This document shows positions 36,023 to 47,561 of a stretch of DNA of 64,000 nucleotides, in pieces. Source of the stretch: Acidobacteriota bacterium (lineage in GTDB: Bacteria > Acidobacteriota > JAAYUB01); assembly GCA_012517875.1 (NCBI GenBank), contig JAAYUB010000077.1, positions 1-64,000 of the forward strand, written 5' to 3'. A program made the position numbers and the translations under genes. Positions within the stretch are counted from its first letter, which is position 1. Every line of letters starts with the position of its first letter. The notes beneath the pieces are model-generated. The model saw nothing but the letters and a program-made list of their open reading frames with translations. It searched no databases and had not been told where the DNA came from.

Positions 36023-37258
36023 ATGAAGCCCGCTTCGGACAAGAGGAAAAAGCCAGTCGCGGACGCCGGAACGGGCGATGTATTCAAGCGTTGCTACGAG
36101 TACACCCGTCCGGAGCAGTTCAAATCGCTGGGACTGTATCCGTATTTCACCGCCTTCAGCGGGTATGTGGGCACCGACCCTATCGTGATGATGAATGGCT
36201 CCCAGGTGCTCATGTTTGGCTCCAACAACTACCTGGGCCTCACCTGCCATCCCAAGGTCAAGGAAGCGGCCGTTGCCGCCATCCAGCGGTATGGCACCGG
36301 CTGCTCCGGTTCCCGGATGCTGAATGGGACCCTGGATATCCATCTCCAACTTGAAGAAGAGCTGGCCGCCTTCTGCGGAAAGGAAGCGGCGGTGCTCTTC
36401 AGCACCGGGTTCATGACCAACGGCTGCCTGTCGAGCCTGTTGGGCCGCGACGTGTTCGCGGTGCTGGACAAGAGCGTCCATGCCAGCATCATCTACGGCA
36501 CCATGGCGTCCTTCAGCAAGAACCACCGCCGTTTCAAACACAACGACATGCAGGACCTGGAGCGCGAGTTGGCCGGCTTGCCCGCCAACCGGGGCAAGAT
36601 TGTCGTGGTGGACGGCGTGTTCAGCATGGAGGGCGACACGGCGCCGCTCGACCGGATCGTTCCGCTGTGCCAGCGGTACGGCGCCCGGCTCTACGTCGAT
36701 GAGGCCCACGGCATGGGGGTGCTGGGCGAACACGGCATCGGTACGGTGGAGCATTTCGGTGTCACGGCCGACACCGACATCATCATGGCCACATTCAGCA
36801 AATCGTTTGCCTCCACCGGCGGCTTCATCGCTTCCGAACGCGCGGTGGTGGAGTATTTGAAACACCACTCCATGCCGTTCATCTTCTCGGCCAGCATGCC
36901 GGCGCCGTCGGTCGCCGCCGCTCGGGCCTCGCTACAGATCATCAAGGACGAACCGGAGCGCCGTCAGAAGTTGCTGCGCAACGCCCAACTCATCCGGGAG
37001 GGCCTCACCGCACTTGGTTTCGAGGTCATTCCCGGCATCACGCCCGTCGTGCCGGTGATCGTCGACGACGAGCTGCTACTCTGCCAGATCCACAAGGAAC
37101 TCCTCGCCAACGGCATCTATACCAATCCCATCTTCAAGCCCGCCGCCGACCGCTGCATGGTCCGGATCAGCTGCATGGCCACCCACAACGAGTCGCAGAT
37201 TCAGCAACTGCTCGAGGTCATGGCCAAGCTGGGCAAGTCTTTCGGCATCATCCACTGA
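36023..37258 (+). CDS. Serine palmitoyltransferase-like alpha-oxoamine synthase
   Basis: A 411-residue PLP enzyme that joins an acyl-CoA (or acyl-ACP) to an amino acid with loss of CO2. LMFGSNNYLGLTCHPKVKE near residue 68, GTGCSGSRMLNGTLDIHLQLE near 92, VVDGVFSMEGDTAPL near 197, YVDEAHGMGVLGEHG near 230 and MATFSKSFASTGGFIAS near 262 (Schiff-base Lys) are clear. The TFSKSFAS form and the N-terminal YPYFTAFSG segment favour serine palmitoyltransferase over biotin (BioF) or threonine-degradation (Kbl) members. The next genes, a reductase and a PAP2 enzyme, agree with a sphingolipid pathway. AGGAG is 6 bases ahead of the ATG. Confidence 0.8.
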   Translation: MKPASDKRKKPVADAGTGDVFKRCYEYTRPEQFKSLGLYPYFTAFSGYVGTDPIVMMNGSQVLMFGSNNYLGLTCHPKVKEAAVAAIQRYGTGCSGSRMLNGTLDIHLQLEEELAAFCGKEAAVLFSTGFMTNGCLSSLLGRDVFAVLDKSVHASIIYGTMASFSKNHRRFKHNDMQDLERELAGLPANRGKIVVVDGVFSMEGDTAPLDRIVPLCQRYGARLYVDEAHGMGVLGEHGIGTVEHFGVTADTDIIMATFSKSFASTGGFIASERAVVEYLKHHSMPFIFSASMPAPSVAAARASLQIIKDEPERRQKLLRNAQLIREGLTALGFEVIPGITPVVPVIVDDELLLCQIHKELLANGIYTNPIFKPAADRCMVRISCMATHNESQIQQLLEVMAKLGKSFGIIH

Positions 37259-37259
37259 C

Positions 37260-38252
37260 ATGCGACTGGCCCTTGTCACGGGAGCCACGGGTTTCATCGG
37301 CCGCCATCTCGTCCCTCTGCTCCTGGAACGCGGTGACGCGGTTCGAGTCGTGGTCCGCAATCCGGCCAAGTTCTCGGCGCTGTTTCCGGATTCCCGCAAT
37401 ATCGAGACCGTGCCGGGAGATTTGGCCGACCCGGCGTGCGCCGCACGGGCCGTGGTCGGCGCCACCCACGTGTACCACCTGGCGGGGGTCACCAAGGCGT
37501 TCCATCCCGCATCGTACTACCAGGGCAACGTCGAATCCACCCGGACATTCGTCGCAGCGATCCTCGCCTCGGCCCACGCCCCGGAGCGTTTCCTGCACGT
37601 GAGCTCGCTGGCGGCCATGGGGCCCGGCGCCACTCCCGAGCCGCCTCCCGACTACGCCTCCCCCGCTCCCCTGACCCATTACGGCCGAAGCAAGCTGGAG
37701 GGCGAAGCGGCGGTCCGGCCGCTGGCGGCTGTTTGTCCGGTGACCGTGTTCCGCCCGCCGGTGGTGTTCGGACCGGGCGACACCGATGTGCTGCATTTTT
37801 TCCGCGCCGTCGCCCGGGGCTGGCTGCCCATCATCGGTCACGACCGGAAGCGCGTGTCCGTGGTGTACGCGCCGGATCTCGCCGCCGCGATGGTGGCCGC
37901 AACCGGCGCGGACGCGGCAGTGGGCAAAACGTACTATCCATGCTACACTGAAAGCTACCGGTGGACCGAGTTGGGCCGGATCGCCGCCGGAGCACTGGGC
38001 CGGACCTGCCGCCCGGTGATCATCCCGATCCCCGTTGTGTGGTTGGTGGCCCTGATGGCCCAACTCGCCGGACGCATGATGCGGAAGCCGACGATTCTGA
38101 ACCTGGAGAAGGTCCGCGAGATGCGCGCGTCTTACTGGGTGTGCTCACCGGCGGAAGCGGCGCGGGATTTCGGATTCCAACCCCGGTGGACCATCGACGA
38201 GGCGATCCGCCAAACGATCGACTGGTACAAGGACCATGGACAGCTCGCCTGA
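37260..38252 (+). CDS. NAD(P)-dependent epimerase/dehydratase-type reductase
   Basis: A 330-residue extended short-chain dehydrogenase. ALVTGATGFIGRHLV at residues 4-18 is the GxxGxxG cofactor loop. HYGRSKLEGE near 140 is the YxxxK catalytic pair, and FRPPVVFGPGD near 163 fits the family. A hydrophobic stretch (IIPIPVVWLVALMAQLAG) near 260 suggests membrane association. Bacterial ceramide pathways use a reductase of this superfamily (CerR) after serine palmitoyltransferase, so this protein probably reduces a 3-keto intermediate. That assignment rests on context. It starts one base after the previous stop and overlaps the next gene by 17 bp. Confidence 0.82.
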   Translation: MRLALVTGATGFIGRHLVPLLLERGDAVRVVVRNPAKFSALFPDSRNIETVPGDLADPACAARAVVGATHVYHLAGVTKAFHPASYYQGNVESTRTFVAAILASAHAPERFLHVSSLAAMGPGATPEPPPDYASPAPLTHYGRSKLEGEAAVRPLAAVCPVTVFRPPVVFGPGDTDVLHFFRAVARGWLPIIGHDRKRVSVVYAPDLAAAMVAATGADAAVGKTYYPCYTESYRWTELGRIAAGALGRTCRPVIIPIPVVWLVALMAQLAGRMMRKPTILNLEKVREMRASYWVCSPAEAARDFGFQPRWTIDEAIRQTIDWYKDHGQLA

Positions 38253-39225
38253 CTACGTCCGAACTGAAAACCAGGCCCTGGACCGACCCGGCCTGCGACC
38301 GGCCGACTTGGCCGTGCTGGTGTTCATCGGTCTGCTGAGCCTGCTGGTCCTGCTCAACTACCGGGAGATTCCCTCCGCCAACCGGCTGCTCATGGTCCAC
38401 GTGTTCATCGCGTCGATTCTCATCTACGCCGCCCGGTTCCCCGTCATCGGCTCCCCCTGGTGGATCAAGGCGATTCGCCTGTGGCACCCGCCGGTCTTCA
38501 TCACCGTCCTGTTCGGGCATCTCGTGGAGATCATTCCGGCCGCCACCGCCGCCGACCGCGATCAGCTCCTGATTCGCTGGGACCTGTGGCTCTTCGGGCA
38601 GCATCCGTCGGTGTTCCTGAACCAGTTCCAGTTCCCCCTGCTCACCGAGTTGCTGCAGTACGTCTACACATGCTTTTACTTCATCCCGCTTGGACTGGCC
38701 ATCGTGATCGTTGCCAGGCGCCGGCTGGGGCTTTACGACTACTTTTATTTCCTCATCTGCTACGGCTTCTTCTTCTCCTACCTGGGTTATTTTCTGATTC
38801 CTGCCGTCGGGCCGCGGTTCACCTTGCAGCCGCTCTACGCCGAGCCGTTGCAGGGAGTCCTGCTCTACGACCACATGGTGAATCTGCTCAATTACCTGGA
38901 GTCGGTGAACCGGGACTGCTTCCCATCGGGCCATGTGATGATGACCCTGGTGACGCTCCACTTTGCCTGGCGGCACGAAAAAACCGCGTTCCGCGTGCTG
39001 CTGCCGCCCGGCCTTCTTCTGATTGTGGGCACGGTCTACCTGCGCTACCACTATCTGGTGGATCTGGTGGCGGCGTTGGGCTGGTATCTGTTCGTGTTCT
39101 ACACGGCGCCTCACCTCTACCGGATGGCGCTTCGGGTGGTGTTCGCCCCGAGCCGGCAGCCCGTCTGGGGGCGCCCCTTCGCCCCGGCCAAGAGCCGTCC
39201 CGCCGCCTGGGAAGATGAGAAGTAA
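38236..39225 (+). CDS. PAP2/Aur1-like phosphotransferase
   Basis: A 329-residue membrane protein with about six hydrophobic segments. The C-terminal half has SYLGYFLIPAVGPR near 185-198, DCFPSGHVMMTL near 228-239 (PSGH with the phospho-accepting His region) and YLRYHYLVDLVAAL near 264-277 (HxxxD). This pattern suits the inositol-phosphorylceramide-synthase (Aur1)-like branch of PAP2 better than plain lipid phosphatases, which carry SRxxxxxHxxxD. Placement directly after the serine palmitoyltransferase-like and reductase genes suggests headgroup transfer to a ceramide-like lipid. The head group cannot be told from the sequence. Confidence 0.8.
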   Translation: MDSSPDYVRTENQALDRPGLRPADLAVLVFIGLLSLLVLLNYREIPSANRLLMVHVFIASILIYAARFPVIGSPWWIKAIRLWHPPVFITVLFGHLVEIIPAATAADRDQLLIRWDLWLFGQHPSVFLNQFQFPLLTELLQYVYTCFYFIPLGLAIVIVARRRLGLYDYFYFLICYGFFFSYLGYFLIPAVGPRFTLQPLYAEPLQGVLLYDHMVNLLNYLESVNRDCFPSGHVMMTLVTLHFAWRHEKTAFRVLLPPGLLLIVGTVYLRYHYLVDLVAALGWYLFVFYTAPHLYRMALRVVFAPSRQPVWGRPFAPAKSRPAAWEDEK

Positions 39226-41315: not shown

Positions 41316-42797
41316 ATGCATCTGTCCCAACTGGCCAGCGCGTCCATCGCCACCATCTTTTTCACCCTCACCGCCTACTATCTCCCCCGGGTGATCTTCG
41401 TCTACCGGCGGATCGACCGGTATTTCTACTACGCCATCACGACCCTGTGCGGGGGGCTCTTCTCCCTTTTCGGCCTGGTGCTCAGTACTCCTCTGCCGGA
41501 CGACGCCGTGCTGCTGTTCCACCGCCTGCGGATGGTGGCGCTGCTGCTCACCATCGTCTTCTGGATGTTCTGCACCTACGCCATCTTCTTCAAGGAGAAG
41601 AGCTGGATCCCGCGGGGCGCGCTGGCCGTGTCGGTGTTCATCATCTGCACCATCCCGTCGGACCTGTACGTGTCGCTGCCGGTGCGCCACGTCCACGTCG
41701 AGTGGCTGGGTATTCCGTTCGACTACCGCTTCGGGCAGACCAACGTGTTCTATTCCGTCTACGCGGTGTGCCTGCTGGCCTGCTTCAGCGTCTCGCTGAT
41801 CAAGGTGATAACCAGCCGCATCGAGCTGCGCATGAAGGTGCTGGGGGTGCTGGCCTTCCTGCCCGGCGTACTGGGCGCGGTGCACGACTTCCCCATCGCC
41901 CACGGCTACAAATCCGGGGTCATGATCAACGAGTATATCGCCTTCCTGTTCCTCATCGCCACGTCCGTCGTGTTCCTGACCGAGGATGAGCAGAACCACC
42001 GCACTCTCCAGAACAAGGCCGTGGAACTGGAGCGCAAGGTCCGGGAGCGGACCGAGCAGCTCGAGCGGCTCAACCGCGAGCTGGCCGGCATGAACGAGGA
42101 TCTGCGCAAGGCCAATGAGCTCAAGAGCGAACTGCTGGGAATCGCCGCCCACGATCTAAAGAACCCGCTCCAGTCGGTCATGGGCTACGGCGAGCTGATC
42201 AGCAACGCGTCCAACGTGAACGAGAAGATTTTCCGCTACGCCAACCTGATCCACCTGTCGTCGCAACGGATGCTGGCCCTGGTGAACGAGCTGCTGGATG
42301 CGACGGCCATCGAGTCGGGCAAGCTGGAGCTGCAGCGGCAGCCGCTGTCGCTGGCCCGGCTGGCCGAGGCGGCGGTGTCCGCATATCACGACGCGGCGGC
42401 GCACAAATCGCAGACGCTCCGGCTGGATGTCGCGGACACCGGCTCGGTGGACGCCGACGCGAGCCGCCTGCGCCAGGTTCTGGACAACCTGCTGAGCAAT
42501 GCCGTCAAATACACCCCGCCGGGTAAAACCATCACAGTGCGGATCGGGACGGACGGCGGCCGGGTGCGCTGCGAGGTCCGGGATGAAGGGCCAGGTCTGT
42601 CCGAAGACGATCGCGCTCAGGTGTTCGGGAAATTCCACCGCCTGTCGGCCAAGCCCACCGGCGGCGAGTCGTCGGTGGGGCTGGGCCTGTTCATCGTGAA
42701 GCAGCTCGTGGACGCTCACGGCGGCCGCGTCGGGGTGGACAGCCCGCCGGGCGGCGGAGCAGCGTTCTGGTTCGAACTGCCAGCGGCTGGAGCGTGA
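41316..42797 (+). CDS. Membrane sensor histidine kinase with N-terminal 7TM-like region
   Basis: A 493-residue sensor kinase. Residues 1-225 hold about seven membrane helices, resembling the 7TM histidine kinase N-terminal region. A coiled coil follows (VELERKVRERTEQLERLNREL, near 232-262). The kinase core has GIAAHDLKNPLQSVMGYGEL near 277 (phospho-acceptor His), DNLLSNAVKYTP near 390 (N box), VRDEGPGLSEDD near 423 (G1) and VGLGLFIVKQLVDAHGG near 457 (G2). No response regulator is next to it. GAGGAGG precedes ATG 41316. The selenoprotein candidate starts 4 bp after its stop, so the two are probably translated from one mRNA. Confidence 0.9.
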   Translation: MHLSQLASASIATIFFTLTAYYLPRVIFVYRRIDRYFYYAITTLCGGLFSLFGLVLSTPLPDDAVLLFHRLRMVALLLTIVFWMFCTYAIFFKEKSWIPRGALAVSVFIICTIPSDLYVSLPVRHVHVEWLGIPFDYRFGQTNVFYSVYAVCLLACFSVSLIKVITSRIELRMKVLGVLAFLPGVLGAVHDFPIAHGYKSGVMINEYIAFLFLIATSVVFLTEDEQNHRTLQNKAVELERKVRERTEQLERLNRELAGMNEDLRKANELKSELLGIAAHDLKNPLQSVMGYGELISNASNVNEKIFRYANLIHLSSQRMLALVNELLDATAIESGKLELQRQPLSLARLAEAAVSAYHDAAAHKSQTLRLDVADTGSVDADASRLRQVLDNLLSNAVKYTPPGKTITVRIGTDGGRVRCEVRDEGPGLSEDDRAQVFGKFHRLSAKPTGGESSVGLGLFIVKQLVDAHGGRVGVDSPPGGGAAFWFELPAAGA

Positions 42798-42801
42798 CGC
42801 G

Positions 42802-43296
42802 ATGGCCTTCATGCAGCTTCTCAACCAGCATTCGGCGATGGTGTTCGGCGGGCTGGTCTTTGGGGGCTGGGCATTGACGCTGGCGCTCCGGCGTGCGCGG
42901 CGGGCGCACTGGGCGACGTTCGGGGCGGCGCTGCTCGCCGTCGCCGGAACGTGGCTGCTGCTGCGCCCGCACTCGGGCGGCGGCGCGGTTCCGCTGGACG
43001 TGGCCGGGGGAGCCGCACCGCTGGGCCAGCCGGTGCTGGTGGAGGTGTTCTCCGACCTTTGAATGGCCTGCCTCGCGGCCAGGCCCCTCGTGGACGGGCT
43101 CGAGAGGGAATGGACCGGCGGCCGGGTGATCCGGGTGGACATCCGCAGCGTCGAGGGAGGTGCGTTTGCCGCGAAGCACGGCTTGACGCTCACCCCTTCA
43201 TTCATTCTCTTCGACGGCGCCGGCGGGGAGGCGGGCCGATGGACGGGCCGTCCGCCCGCACTCGGCGACATCGCCGCGGCGTTAGACAATCGCTAG
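42802..43296 (+). CDS. Membrane-anchored thioredoxin-like selenoprotein candidate (UxxC)
   Basis: Read through TGA 43060-43062, the frame encodes 164 residues. Two hydrophobic segments (12-31 and 37-55) precede a thioredoxin domain. PVLVEVFSDL ends at residue 86, TGA is codon 87, and MACLAARPLVDGL follows, so TGA takes the place of the first Cys in CxxC. VIRVDI and LTPSFILFDGAGGEAGRWTG near 134-153 give the thioredoxin beta strands and the cis-Pro. The only encoded Cys is the second of the motif. The frame stays open on both sides and a hairpin lies 21 nt downstream. GGAG is 9 bases ahead of ATG 42802. The alternative is a recent nonsense mutation or an assembly error; then two fragments (42802-43062 and 43063-43296) would result. 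Confidence 0.75.
43063..43108 (+). promoter_or_regulatory. Candidate bacterial SECIS element
   Basis: Just after TGA 43060-43062, two alternative hairpins are visible. The better SECIS fit pairs 43084-43090 with 43101-43108: seven base pairs, one bulged A at 43105, and a 10-nt apical loop TGGACGGGCT that starts 28 nt after the TGA and has G at its second position. The other pairs 43065-43070 with 43080-43085 (GGCCTG with CAGGCC). The two overlap at 43084-43085. Folding energy was not calculated. Confidence 0.55.
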
Positions 43297-43490: not shown

Positions 43491-43547
43491 CTCGATCACG
43501 ATTACGATCACGATTACGATCACGACTACGAACCACGAGCACGAAGG
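43491..43547 (+). repeat. GATTAC/GATCAC dispersed repeat, copy A1
   Basis: Successive hexamers GATCAC, GATTAC, GATCAC, GATTAC, GATCAC, GACTAC lead into GAACCACGAGCACGAA. The 6-nt step and the closing ACGAGCACGA segment recur in copies C and D at 56364 and 58518. Confidence 0.75.
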
Positions 43548-43609: not shown

Positions 43610-43661
43610 GGACTTGAAACTCCTATCTCCGAATTGTTCACTGTTTACTGTTCACCGCACA

Positions 43662-43692
43662 CTAAAAAGAAGGCTCCCCCGGAGGGGAGCCT
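43662..43692 (-). terminator. Rho-independent terminator of the TonB receptor
   Basis: A 9-bp perfect stem (43671-43679 with 43684-43692) and a CGGA tetraloop are followed on the minus strand by TTCTTTTT. It lies 22 bp beyond the stop of the TonB-dependent receptor. Confidence 0.92.
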
Positions 43693-43714
43693 TTGGTACC
43701 GGAATCGGGATCGG

Positions 43715-46700
43715 CTAGAAGATGAACTTCATGCCGAACTGGATCTGGCGGGAGGCCACCGTGGTGTAGCTCTTGCCAAGATTCGAGCTGGTCAGGTTGG
43801 TATTGGGATTGTTGAAATTGGTGTGGTTGAACAGGTTGAACGCCTCGGCCCGGAACTGCAGCTTGGAGCCCTCCGCGGTGAACCACGGCAGCTTGAAGTC
43901 CTTAAACATGGAGAAATCGACGTTCCAGAAACCGGGACCGCGGAACTTGCCGCGGTAGTAATCACCCACCGGGTTGTACAGGTTGATCACGCTGGAGGCC
44001 CAGGAGAAGTTGGCCGCGGTGGGGCCGACGATGTTGTTGGCGATGTCGGTGCTCACCTCGTACGTGACCACATTGGGTCGGGACGGGGCGCGGTTGTTGG
44101 TGTAGCCGGTGCCCAGGGTGTCGCGCGGGACTTTGTAGTCCAGCGGGAAGCCGCTGTTGGCCTGGATGATCCCGTTGATCTGCCAGCCGCCGATCAGCTC
44201 GGCCAGCCAACCTTCCGTGGTGCCGCCCAGCCACTTGCCGGGACCGAAGGGGAGTTCGTAGATGAAATTGCCGCTGAAAATGTGGCGCACGTCGAAGGCG
44301 GCGTACCCGCGGTCGTAGTCCAGATTGTACCAGTCGGATGCGAACGGGCTGGAGTTGCCCAACGACCACACGGACTCGGAGTTGTTGTCGAAGGCGGCGG
44401 ACCAGGTGTAGTTGGCTTGGAACTGGAGGCCGTCCTGAAAGCGATGGCTATACGAGCTCTGGAGGGAGTGGTAATTGGAGTGCCCATACGAATCGATGTT
44501 GTGCACCCGGATGAACTGGGAGTTCATCCCGCTGTAGTAGCGCACGAACCACGGGATGGCGGTGGAACCGAGGCCATTGTCAACCATGCCCTGGATGGTC
44601 GCTTCGGACGGGTGCGGCATCTGGTTCGGGTTGTTCCGGACGTACAGGTGGACGCCTGCGGAACCGGCATAGGTGAGGTTCAGGATGTTGCCGGGCCAGA
44701 TCTCTCGCTGGGCCGACAGGTTCCAGGTCTGGATGTATGGCGTCTTGAGTTCGTTGTTGAAGAGCACCATCTCGTAGAAGGATTCGGGAGCGAGGTGAAG
44801 GGTGACTTCCGGCAGGGCGATGCCGTTGCCATAGTAGCCGACGTTGTTGGGGTAGACGCCGTCGTAGCCGCCGCCGGGCTGGGCGCTGAGGAAGTTCTCC
44901 ACACCGAACGGCAGCTGGGCGGCGTTCCAGGTGAGCAGGTTGCCGAACATGCGGTCGAAGCTGATGCCGTAGCCGCCGCGGATGGCGGTCTTGCCGTCGC
45001 CGAACGGATCCCACGAGAAGCCGATCCGGGGCGCGAAGTTGTGGGCTTCGGCCTCGTACAAGTCGTTGCCGGTGTCGGGGCCGCACAGGATGATGTCCGT
45101 CCCGTTGCCCACCCACTCGGAGACCACCAGGTTCCACCACTCGCCGCCTTCCCAGTTGGCCGGATCAAAGAAGTTGTTCTGGTTCACGATCCGATAGCCC
45201 TGGGAGTACGGGTTGATGATGGTGGAGGCCAGGTTGTTCACCTCGTAGGCCGCCGGCTTGTACTCGTAGCGCAGACCGAGGTTGAGGGTGAAGTTGGGGA
45301 ACACCTTCCAGTCGTCCTGGACGAAGAAGTCGAACTCCTTCTGCCGCCAGCCGCGCCAGTCGGAGATGTCGCGCGAGAATACCGTGCCGTCGGAGTAGAC
45401 GCCGTGGTCCACGTTGTCCACGATGCCGGCGCGCATGTTCTCGACGGTGTCACCGCCGTTGAACGCGCCGTCAAAGAAGGCGGTGGGGGTCATGCCGAAC
45501 CCGGAACCGCCGTTGTTCTGGTTCCAGCGCAGATCGGCGCCGAACTTGACGTTGTGGGTGCCCAGGGTCCAAGTGACGATGTCCTTGACCTGGTAGGTGT
45601 TGAGGGGCGAATCTTCGTCCCCATAGCCCCACGGCCCGCCGAAGTCGGTGAAGTAGCGGGTGGGATCCTGGAGGTAGCCGCCGAAGTTCAGGTCGATGTC
45701 CGTCCACTGGCGGGTCCAGGTGTTGGCGGCGCGGGTGTACCCAAGCTTCAGGGAGTTGACCATGGTGGGATTCACGATGTAGGTCCACTCGGCACCAAAG
45801 GTCTGGGCCGTGCCGGAGTACTCCCGTGTGTTCTGGAACGTGGGCAGATAGCCGCCTGCAGGCGCAGTGGTGTACGGGTCGGTGCCGGTGTTGCGGACGT
45901 AGCGGAAGGAAAAGGCGTGGGCCTCGTTGAAGTTGTAGTCCACCTTGGCCACGTACTGCTCGAAGTTCTGCGGCTCGGCGTGCGACCAGACATAGCGGCC
46001 GCTGATGTCGGTTTCCTGGTCGCTGTTGGGCATCGGGTAATAGGTGTTGAAGATCTGGGCGATGGCGGGATTGGTGATCGAGTCCCGGAATGCCTGGTAC
46101 GGGGTGAAGCCGGTGACCACCGTCATCTGGCGGACGCGCAGCAGCTCGGTGTTGAAGAAAAAGAACAGCTTGTCCTTGATAATGGGACCGCCGATGGAGG
46201 CGCCGTACTGGTGACGCTTGTAGTCGCCCTTTTCCAGACCGTCGCGGTTTTCCTCCCAGAGCGCCGCGTCCAGGTTTTCGGCGCGCAGGAAGTAGAAGGC
46301 TGCGCCGTGGTACTCGTTGGTGCCGCTCTTGGTCACCAGGTCGATGACCGCGCCGCCGGCGCGGCCGTATTCGGCCGACGGGTTGGAGGTGACCACGCGG
46401 AACTCCGAGGTGGCATCCACGTTCACGTCCACGGTGGAGCCGACGGTCTGGGTGTAGTTGTTGTCGATGCCGTCGATCTGGTAGTTGTTGCCGCGCTCGC
46501 GGCCGCCGTTGGCGGAGGCATAGCCGGACTGCCCCTGGATGACGCCGGGGGTCAGGTAGATCAGGTTCAGCGGATTGCGTCCGTTGAGCGGCAGGTCCAG
46601 AATGCGCTTCTCGTCGATGATGGTGTCGAGCTGGGAAGTGGTGGTCTCCACCTGCTCCACCTCGGCCCGGACCTCGACTTCCGTGGTCACTTCGGATACG

Positions 46701-47020
46701 CTCATGATCAGGGGGAAGTTGAGGCGCTCACCGACGGACAACTTGATACCGGTGACCTTCACCGGCTGGAAACCTTCCAGATCCGCCTTGACCTCGTAGT
46801 TGCCGACGCGCAGGTTGTTGAAGGCGTAATACCCGCTGTCATCGGAAAGGGTCTCCCGGGTCTGGCCGGTGTCGGTGCTGGTCAGGATCACGGTGACGCC
46901 GGGGATGACCCCGCCCGTGTTGTCCTTGACCACACCTTCGATGGCCTGGTCCGCGAACACGCCCACGGTCAGGCAGACCGCGAGGAACGCGAAGGCCAGC
47001 ATTCTGTGGGTGCGGGACAT
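43715..47020 (-). CDS. TonB-dependent receptor, Oar-like, with carboxypeptidase-regulatory-like domain
   Basis: A 1101-residue outer-membrane protein. A signal peptide spans 1-23 (MLAFAFLAVCLTVGVFA). Residues 26-105 form a carboxypeptidase-regulatory-like beta sandwich (AIEGVVKDNTGGVIPGVTVILTS). The plug follows, with LDLPLNGRNPLNLIYLTPGV near 142 and NYQIDGIDNNYTQ near 178. The barrel runs to the end, closing with the aromatic strand RQIQFGMKFIF. This is the type of large receptor expanded in Acidobacteriota, probably importing plant or microbial polymers. AAGGAGG lies 5 bases ahead of ATG 47020, and a terminator follows the stop. No SusD-like partner is adjacent. Confidence 0.93.
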   Translation of the reverse strand: MSRTHRMLAFAFLAVCLTVGVFADQAIEGVVKDNTGGVIPGVTVILTSTDTGQTRETLSDDSGYYAFNNLRVGNYEVKADLEGFQPVKVTGIKLSVGERLNFPLIMSVSEVTTEVEVRAEVEQVETTTSQLDTIIDEKRILDLPLNGRNPLNLIYLTPGVIQGQSGYASANGGRERGNNYQIDGIDNNYTQTVGSTVDVNVDATSEFRVVTSNPSAEYGRAGGAVIDLVTKSGTNEYHGAAFYFLRAENLDAALWEENRDGLEKGDYKRHQYGASIGGPIIKDKLFFFFNTELLRVRQMTVVTGFTPYQAFRDSITNPAIAQIFNTYYPMPNSDQETDISGRYVWSHAEPQNFEQYVAKVDYNFNEAHAFSFRYVRNTGTDPYTTAPAGGYLPTFQNTREYSGTAQTFGAEWTYIVNPTMVNSLKLGYTRAANTWTRQWTDIDLNFGGYLQDPTRYFTDFGGPWGYGDEDSPLNTYQVKDIVTWTLGTHNVKFGADLRWNQNNGGSGFGMTPTAFFDGAFNGGDTVENMRAGIVDNVDHGVYSDGTVFSRDISDWRGWRQKEFDFFVQDDWKVFPNFTLNLGLRYEYKPAAYEVNNLASTIINPYSQGYRIVNQNNFFDPANWEGGEWWNLVVSEWVGNGTDIILCGPDTGNDLYEAEAHNFAPRIGFSWDPFGDGKTAIRGGYGISFDRMFGNLLTWNAAQLPFGVENFLSAQPGGGYDGVYPNNVGYYGNGIALPEVTLHLAPESFYEMVLFNNELKTPYIQTWNLSAQREIWPGNILNLTYAGSAGVHLYVRNNPNQMPHPSEATIQGMVDNGLGSTAIPWFVRYYSGMNSQFIRVHNIDSYGHSNYHSLQSSYSHRFQDGLQFQANYTWSAAFDNNSESVWSLGNSSPFASDWYNLDYDRGYAAFDVRHIFSGNFIYELPFGPGKWLGGTTEGWLAELIGGWQINGIIQANSGFPLDYKVPRDTLGTGYTNNRAPSRPNVVTYEVSTDIANNIVGPTAANFSWASSVINLYNPVGDYYRGKFRGPGFWNVDFSMFKDFKLPWFTAEGSKLQFRAEAFNLFNHTNFNNPNTNLTSSNLGKSYTTVASRQIQFGMKFIF

Positions 47021-47561
47021 GCAAACCTCCTTGAGGGTAGAATTGGAAGCGGTCGCGGTCGCGCGAACAGCGAGGGCGGCGCCTGCCGGTGGGCGGCGCC
47101 GTGGTCGGTCAGAGGGGTTGATCCAAAATTTTGGTATCAAAGTCTTCCCCCGATACTCTGCCGGCCGATTTCGCCGGTTCGGAAACCCAGAGTCCGGCTT
47201 CCTACACCACATTATGCGGATCTGAAAAGGGTTATGAAAGGCGGTTGGGACGAACTGGACTCAATGCGAAACAGGACGCCGAGACGGATATTTGAAACGG
47301 ATTTGTGGGAAAGCCATGTTCAACTGATTGTTCACGTATTTATCGTTGATTTTGCGCATGATTCTTATTCTCAGAATATAATCTTGCAAATCACATACCA
47401 ATTATTGTTCTGCCCGATAATCGGCATAAATATAAATATTCATTGACATCTACGCTGCAACGGAGCCAAGGGGAGCCGCGCATGTCCAATTATTTGGTTA
47501 CATATTCCAATATATTGAATATTTTTGGCTGTTTATCCGGATGCGGCCGTCCGGTTCCGCT
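47021..47561. other. Intergenic region between TonB receptor and LytS-type kinase
   Basis: No firm gene. It contains the perfect palindrome CCAAAATTTTGG at 47123-47134, about 103 bp ahead of the receptor start, and an AT-rich section from about 47330 to 47530. A doubtful 54-codon frame begins at ATG 47482 and runs into the end of the kinase gene. Confidence 0.5.

Follow-up and report, generated by a model that had tools for sequence, protein, structure and literature searches.

The TGA-interrupted gene at 42802-43296

The window analyzed here is a stretch of 64,000 nucleotides (positions 1 to 64,000 of contig JAAYUB010000077.1) from an Acidobacteriota bin of 4.02 Mb in 182 contigs (GCA_012517875.1). 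On its forward strand, at 42802-43296, lies a gene whose frame runs from an ATG at 42802 to a TAG at 43294-43296 and is interrupted only by a TGA at 43060-43062 (codon 87). With the UGA read as selenocysteine (Sec), the product is a thioredoxin-like protein of 164 amino acids, referred to below as the Sec-thioredoxin. Its active site would be SDL-U-MAC, with Sec87 at the first position of a UxxC motif and Cys90 (codon 43069-43071), the resolving cysteine, as the only true cysteine; the cis-Pro segment reads TPSFILFD. Without read-through, standard open reading frame (ORF) calling yields two pieces, of 86 and 77 amino acids. An initial annotation, made from the sequence alone, had described a single frame broken only by this TGA, its placement at the first cysteine of a thioredoxin CxxC with the cis-Pro segment intact and one cysteine left, and the splitting of such a gene by standard callers; reading of the ORFs confirmed all of this. 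It had also proposed that Sec is inserted at the TGA and that the protein is membrane-anchored and might be strongly reducing. Sec insertion is supported by homologs that carry only UGA or Cys at the site, by the Sec machinery of the genome and by a covarying hairpin in the family, and the membrane anchor by two predicted helices. The gene very probably encodes a genuine selenoprotein, with a UxxC thioredoxin domain and a two-helix membrane tether, most likely facing outward.

AlphaFold2, run on 45 family members (mean predicted local distance difference test score, pLDDT, 87.6), gave helices at residues 11-29 (42832-42888) and 34-54 (42901-42963), both predicted to be transmembrane, and a thioredoxin-like domain, which in the window spans residues 76-164 (43027-43293) with the cis-Pro at residue 132. 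The closest solved structures by fold (Foldseek) were thioredoxins and the C-terminal domain of DsbD, and the closest by sequence profile were thioredoxins. Invariant positions include U/C87, C90, P95, G99, E101, P132, and G149. The family has the thioredoxin fold, the active-site pair spaced by two residues and the cis-Pro of a PF00085-like protein.

Conservation of the UGA codon and selenocysteine machinery

Two genus mates carry the gene, with 87% and 85% protein identity and TGA at the same codon, and all three separately assembled genomes agree on the TGA. Public Acidobacteriota bins (L108, L120) are the source of genus-mate copies. The coding sequence is conserved among these genus mates: third-position changes were in excess on both sides of the UGA, and after it a comparison with L018 gave 14 synonymous and 8 non-synonymous codons. 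UGA was also found at this site in three more genera, from two other families of the phylum, at approximately 26-36% identity (L020/L047, L022/L048, and L049).

A collection of 84,980 species genomes was searched at the DNA level for C-L-x-A-[KR]-P-x-V-x-G-x-E, with a pattern that left the UGA codon free and fixed third bases only for the Cys, Lys/Arg, and final Glu codons. The scan returned 47 stretches, 46 of which were family members, and all 46 had TGA three codons before the Cys. The remaining stretch (L079) is unrelated, has GGG at the site and matched by chance. Members came from Chloroflexota (mostly Anaerolineae), Acidobacteriota, Planctomycetota, and Myxococcota; a viral collection contained no match to the pattern. 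Weak Acidobacteriota matches with WCGPC or CIPC were ordinary thioredoxins and were set aside. One Acidobacteriota genome (G407) has the Sec-thioredoxin gene twice, on separate contigs (L086 and L095).

The 46 UGA codons among 46 members had suggested a family without Cys forms, an idea that proved wrong when 301 Chloroflexota genomes were surveyed with a profile. The 28 best loci, three of them from genomes already in the pattern scan, had UGA at the site in 22 cases and Cys in six (CINC, CGAC, CLGC, CISC, CLVC, and CGMC). Across both searches the site held UGA or Cys and no other residue, as the initial annotation would predict, and Sec is the commonest state. A Chloroflexota survey locus near a contig edge (L123) also had UGA. 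When 72 sequences were placed on a tree, the Cys forms were scattered, with at least three changes forced by well-supported branches, though the tree is built on few columns and has many weak forks. One UGA member (L146) carries Ser where the resolving Cys would stand (UGAS) and would need a monoselenol mechanism.

The genome of the window also encodes Sec machinery. A tRNA-Sec was found at 79.3 bits (cut-off 47) and was identified by ARAGORN as tRNA-SeC with anticodon tca, and SelA and SelD were found with E-values of 4.8e-116 and 2.2e-111. The SelD gene (L011 1501-2424, minus strand; C121 of the same genome) has a UGA of its own in frame, within AGUASK. Sec-containing SelD with a UxxK site is given in a May 2026 inventory of selenoproteins (PMC13188914), and because AGUASK fits that site, this SelD is a probable second selenoprotein. 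Each of the 45 genomes with pattern matches contained SelB or SelA (SelB in 37, SelA in the other eight).

The hairpin downstream of the UGA and competing explanations

Members share AARCCC-RUC-GUN-GAY-GGG after the UGA, which can form a hairpin that begins 19 nt past the UGA codon, with a GUN loop beginning 27 nt past it. The hairpin, at 43082-43100 in the window, matches a bacterial selenocysteine insertion sequence (SECIS); in the genus mates it has a perfect 8-bp stem and a GUG loop. Codon usage and covariation both point to conservation of the RNA. All 47 sequences use GGG for the Gly and 45 use CCC for the Pro, at third bases that the search pattern had left free. The first base of the Ile/Val/Met codon and the last base of the Asp/Asn codon changed together, A with T and G with C, in 45 of 47 sequences (Fisher p = 7e-12, a value that is generous for related sequences). 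Neither the observed number of paired cells nor the observed covariation score was reached by any of 500 shuffles or in any slid register. The hairpin was mostly lost in the Cys forms: in the Chloroflexota survey, UGA members kept a mean of 5.6 of six core pairs versus 2.2 in Cys members (p = 1e-4).

Several observations weigh against the selenoprotein reading. In the window's own copy CTC replaces GTC, which puts a C.C mismatch at 43087/43095 where the genus mates have G-C, and when the whole 54-nt fragment was folded the SECIS register was disfavored, with near-zero probability. Of SelB, only the C-terminal part was visible, a winged-helix match (E = 6e-8) in an ORF truncated at a contig end. 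In addition, SelA passed the cut-off in 269 of the 396 genomes sampled from the phylum, and because this background is high, the co-occurrence with Sec machinery is consistent with Sec insertion and not strong evidence for it.

The mismatch and the disfavored register raise the question of whether the family makes selenoproteins while the SECIS of this species has decayed, so that the UGA mostly terminates and the copy is being lost; a harmless assembly error would give the same sequence. The 43087-43095 pair is broken in the window's sequence alone among the 47, and the base at 43087 could mean that the signal is genuinely weaker here or could be an assembly base error. However, the protein frame is otherwise undamaged, with mostly conservative differences from the genus mates, the hairpin still forms with one internal mismatch in short fragments beginning 18 or 20 nt in, and tRNA-Sec and SelD are still present in the genome. 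Decay of this copy is considered unlikely. Confidence in the selenoprotein interpretation is high for the family and somewhat lower for efficient Sec insertion in the window's species, because its SECIS stem has the C.C mismatch.

An ATG stands directly after the UGA (TGAATG) and opens a 77-amino acid ORF to the same stop, which would allow the UGA to be an ordinary stop that ends a short membrane peptide, followed by re-initiation of a second protein. Relatives do not conserve this ATG and carry AGC, GCG, ACG, CTG, and other codons there, with the frame kept. A protein split at this point would lose the active-site nucleophile, and its thioredoxin domain would be severed after the first strand. 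The Cys forms, for their part, read straight through, and re-initiation is very improbable.

A pseudogene or a sequencing error, for which nothing speaks except the in-frame stop itself, is barely credible for a UGA that is identical in separately assembled genomes of four phyla, with a purifying pattern of codon changes on both sides and RNA-level conservation after it. Reading of UGA as Trp under an altered genetic code has nothing in its favor and can be dismissed almost entirely, since UGA terminates the neighboring upstream gene (42795-42797), the tRNA-Trp identified carries the normal CCA anticodon, a tRNA-Sec is present, and Sec is exchanged with Cys at the site and never with Trp.

Relation to known families, topology, and possible function

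The 45 members were scanned against Pfam and NCBIfam at an E-value of 0.01, and they had only generic thioredoxin-type matches, with no model specific to the family. The closest listed relative is the Sec-thioredoxin of the inventory cited above (PF00085, UxxC; representative WP_010956703.1), which shares the thioredoxin domain with Sec first in UxxC; all 45 members matched PF00085 at E-values up to 0.01. The proteins studied here appear to differ from that family in their one- or two-helix anchor, their probably outward-facing domain, the lack of W-U-G-P-C, and a motif of their own (UxxCLxAKPIVDGIE). The window's protein fell below the curated cut-offs of both TIGR01068 (17.0 versus 96.8 bits) and PF00085 (17.3 versus 23.5 bits).

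Other thioredoxin-like folds with UxxC in the inventory are SaoT (NF040730), the HUIPC type (NF047660), and the hypothetical GOS_C (NF045500); none of the 45 members matched these three models at the same threshold. The thiol:disulfide interchange selenoprotein (PF13098, UxxC) and TsoB (NF045694) resemble the family in having Sec in redox proteins with a thioredoxin-like part, and over the thioredoxin domain PF13098 was matched by 39 members and TsoB, weakly, by 22. These matches were weaker than those to thioredoxin, and the family has no rhodanese or DsbD part. ResA, CcmG/DsbE, TlpA, and the C-terminal domain of DsbD are likewise membrane-tethered, outward-facing thioredoxin domains and are likely functional analogs, and DsbD-gamma was among the best structural matches. 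These proteins use Cys, however, and their NCBIfam models matched part of the members, more weakly than thioredoxin did.

No description of the family turned up in a literature search centered on Chloroflexota, and the names Chloroflexota and Acidobacteriota were absent from the reviews of prokaryotic selenoproteins that were word-searched. The family is absent from the models and lists checked. It is ranked here as a new subfamily of Sec-thioredoxin and not as a new kind of selenoprotein. In the inventory it fits only the generic PF00085 entry, with which a domain-based scheme might lump it. It is a well-supported selenoprotein subfamily in Chloroflexota and Acidobacteriota, with genes of a kind that standard annotation splits or drops, and has a searchable signature, the UxxCLxAKPIVDGIE motif plus the hairpin.

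Two types of anchor occur in the family. Proteins of the two-helix type have a positively charged inter-helix loop, and often an N-terminal NQ[YHN]S motif; because of the charge of that loop, their thioredoxin domain is likely to lie outside the cytoplasm. For one-helix proteins the charges differ little (1.7 versus 1.6 K+R), and an outside location, less certain, is suggested mainly by a more acidic C-terminal flank. The membrane-anchored domain probably faces out of the cytoplasm, to judge its sidedness from these charges, and selenocysteine would in that case be carried by a tethered thioredoxin outside the cell's interior.

The best-supported mechanism is that of a membrane-tethered thiol-disulfide (selenol) reductase. 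SelB and tRNA-Sec would decode the UGA, aided by the hairpin downstream, and the two helices would tether the thioredoxin domain to the cytoplasmic membrane, most likely on the outward side. As in ordinary thioredoxins, the U87 selenolate would attack disulfides or other oxidized groups, here of exported targets, and Cys90 would then resolve the mixed selenylsulfide. Sec insertion itself, the outward topology, the reductase activity, and the nature of the substrate and reductant are what we infer. The paired Sec and Cys forms, with the hairpin gained or lost, amount to a clean natural experiment on the advantage that Sec confers.

Gene order suggests a possible partner. A canonical trxA (WCGPC) immediately precedes the gene in about nine loci of Chloroflexota, most of which are of the one-helix type; a gene for a CsoR/RicR-like repressor follows downstream in five, and in five there is a thioredoxin reductase gene within approximately 0.5-4.3 kb. 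TrxA may accordingly be suggested as the partner of the Sec-thioredoxin. The neighbors of the two-helix Chloroflexota branch, read from sequence as EF-G-like, methyltransferase, and phosphatase-like, suggested no function. In the window the upstream neighbor is not trxA but a membrane histidine kinase gene (41316-42797, forward strand), which ends at its own TGA 4 nt before the ATG of the Sec-thioredoxin gene; the genus mates share this order and placement.

A broader reading is possible, though on balance doubtful. The family could be a wide, unlisted subfamily in which Sec prevails and is perhaps ancestral, and which brings reducing power to the membrane's outer face. In the one Chloroflexota branch where the gene directly follows a cytosolic trxA, at times with a gene for a CsoR-type repressor or for thioredoxin reductase close by, it would belong to a dedicated thiol/selenol system. 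The SECIS RNA, and not protein function, would dictate one part of the amino acid sequence, the Gly of VDG.

Elsewhere in the window, a short tandem array with the unit CGATCACGATTA lies downstream of the Sec-thioredoxin gene, at 43493-43544. A 1270-amino acid open frame at 43634-47446 on the forward strand runs antisense to a gene for a TonB/Oar-like outer membrane protein (43715-47212, reverse strand) and is probably a by-product of high GC content and no gene. Three adjacent genes at 36023-39225 are possibly a bacterial ceramide/sphingolipid cluster: the first encodes an Aminotran_1_2 enzyme, read as similar to alpha-oxoamine synthases of the serine palmitoyltransferase kind, and the others an NAD-dependent epimerase and a PAP2 membrane phosphatase.
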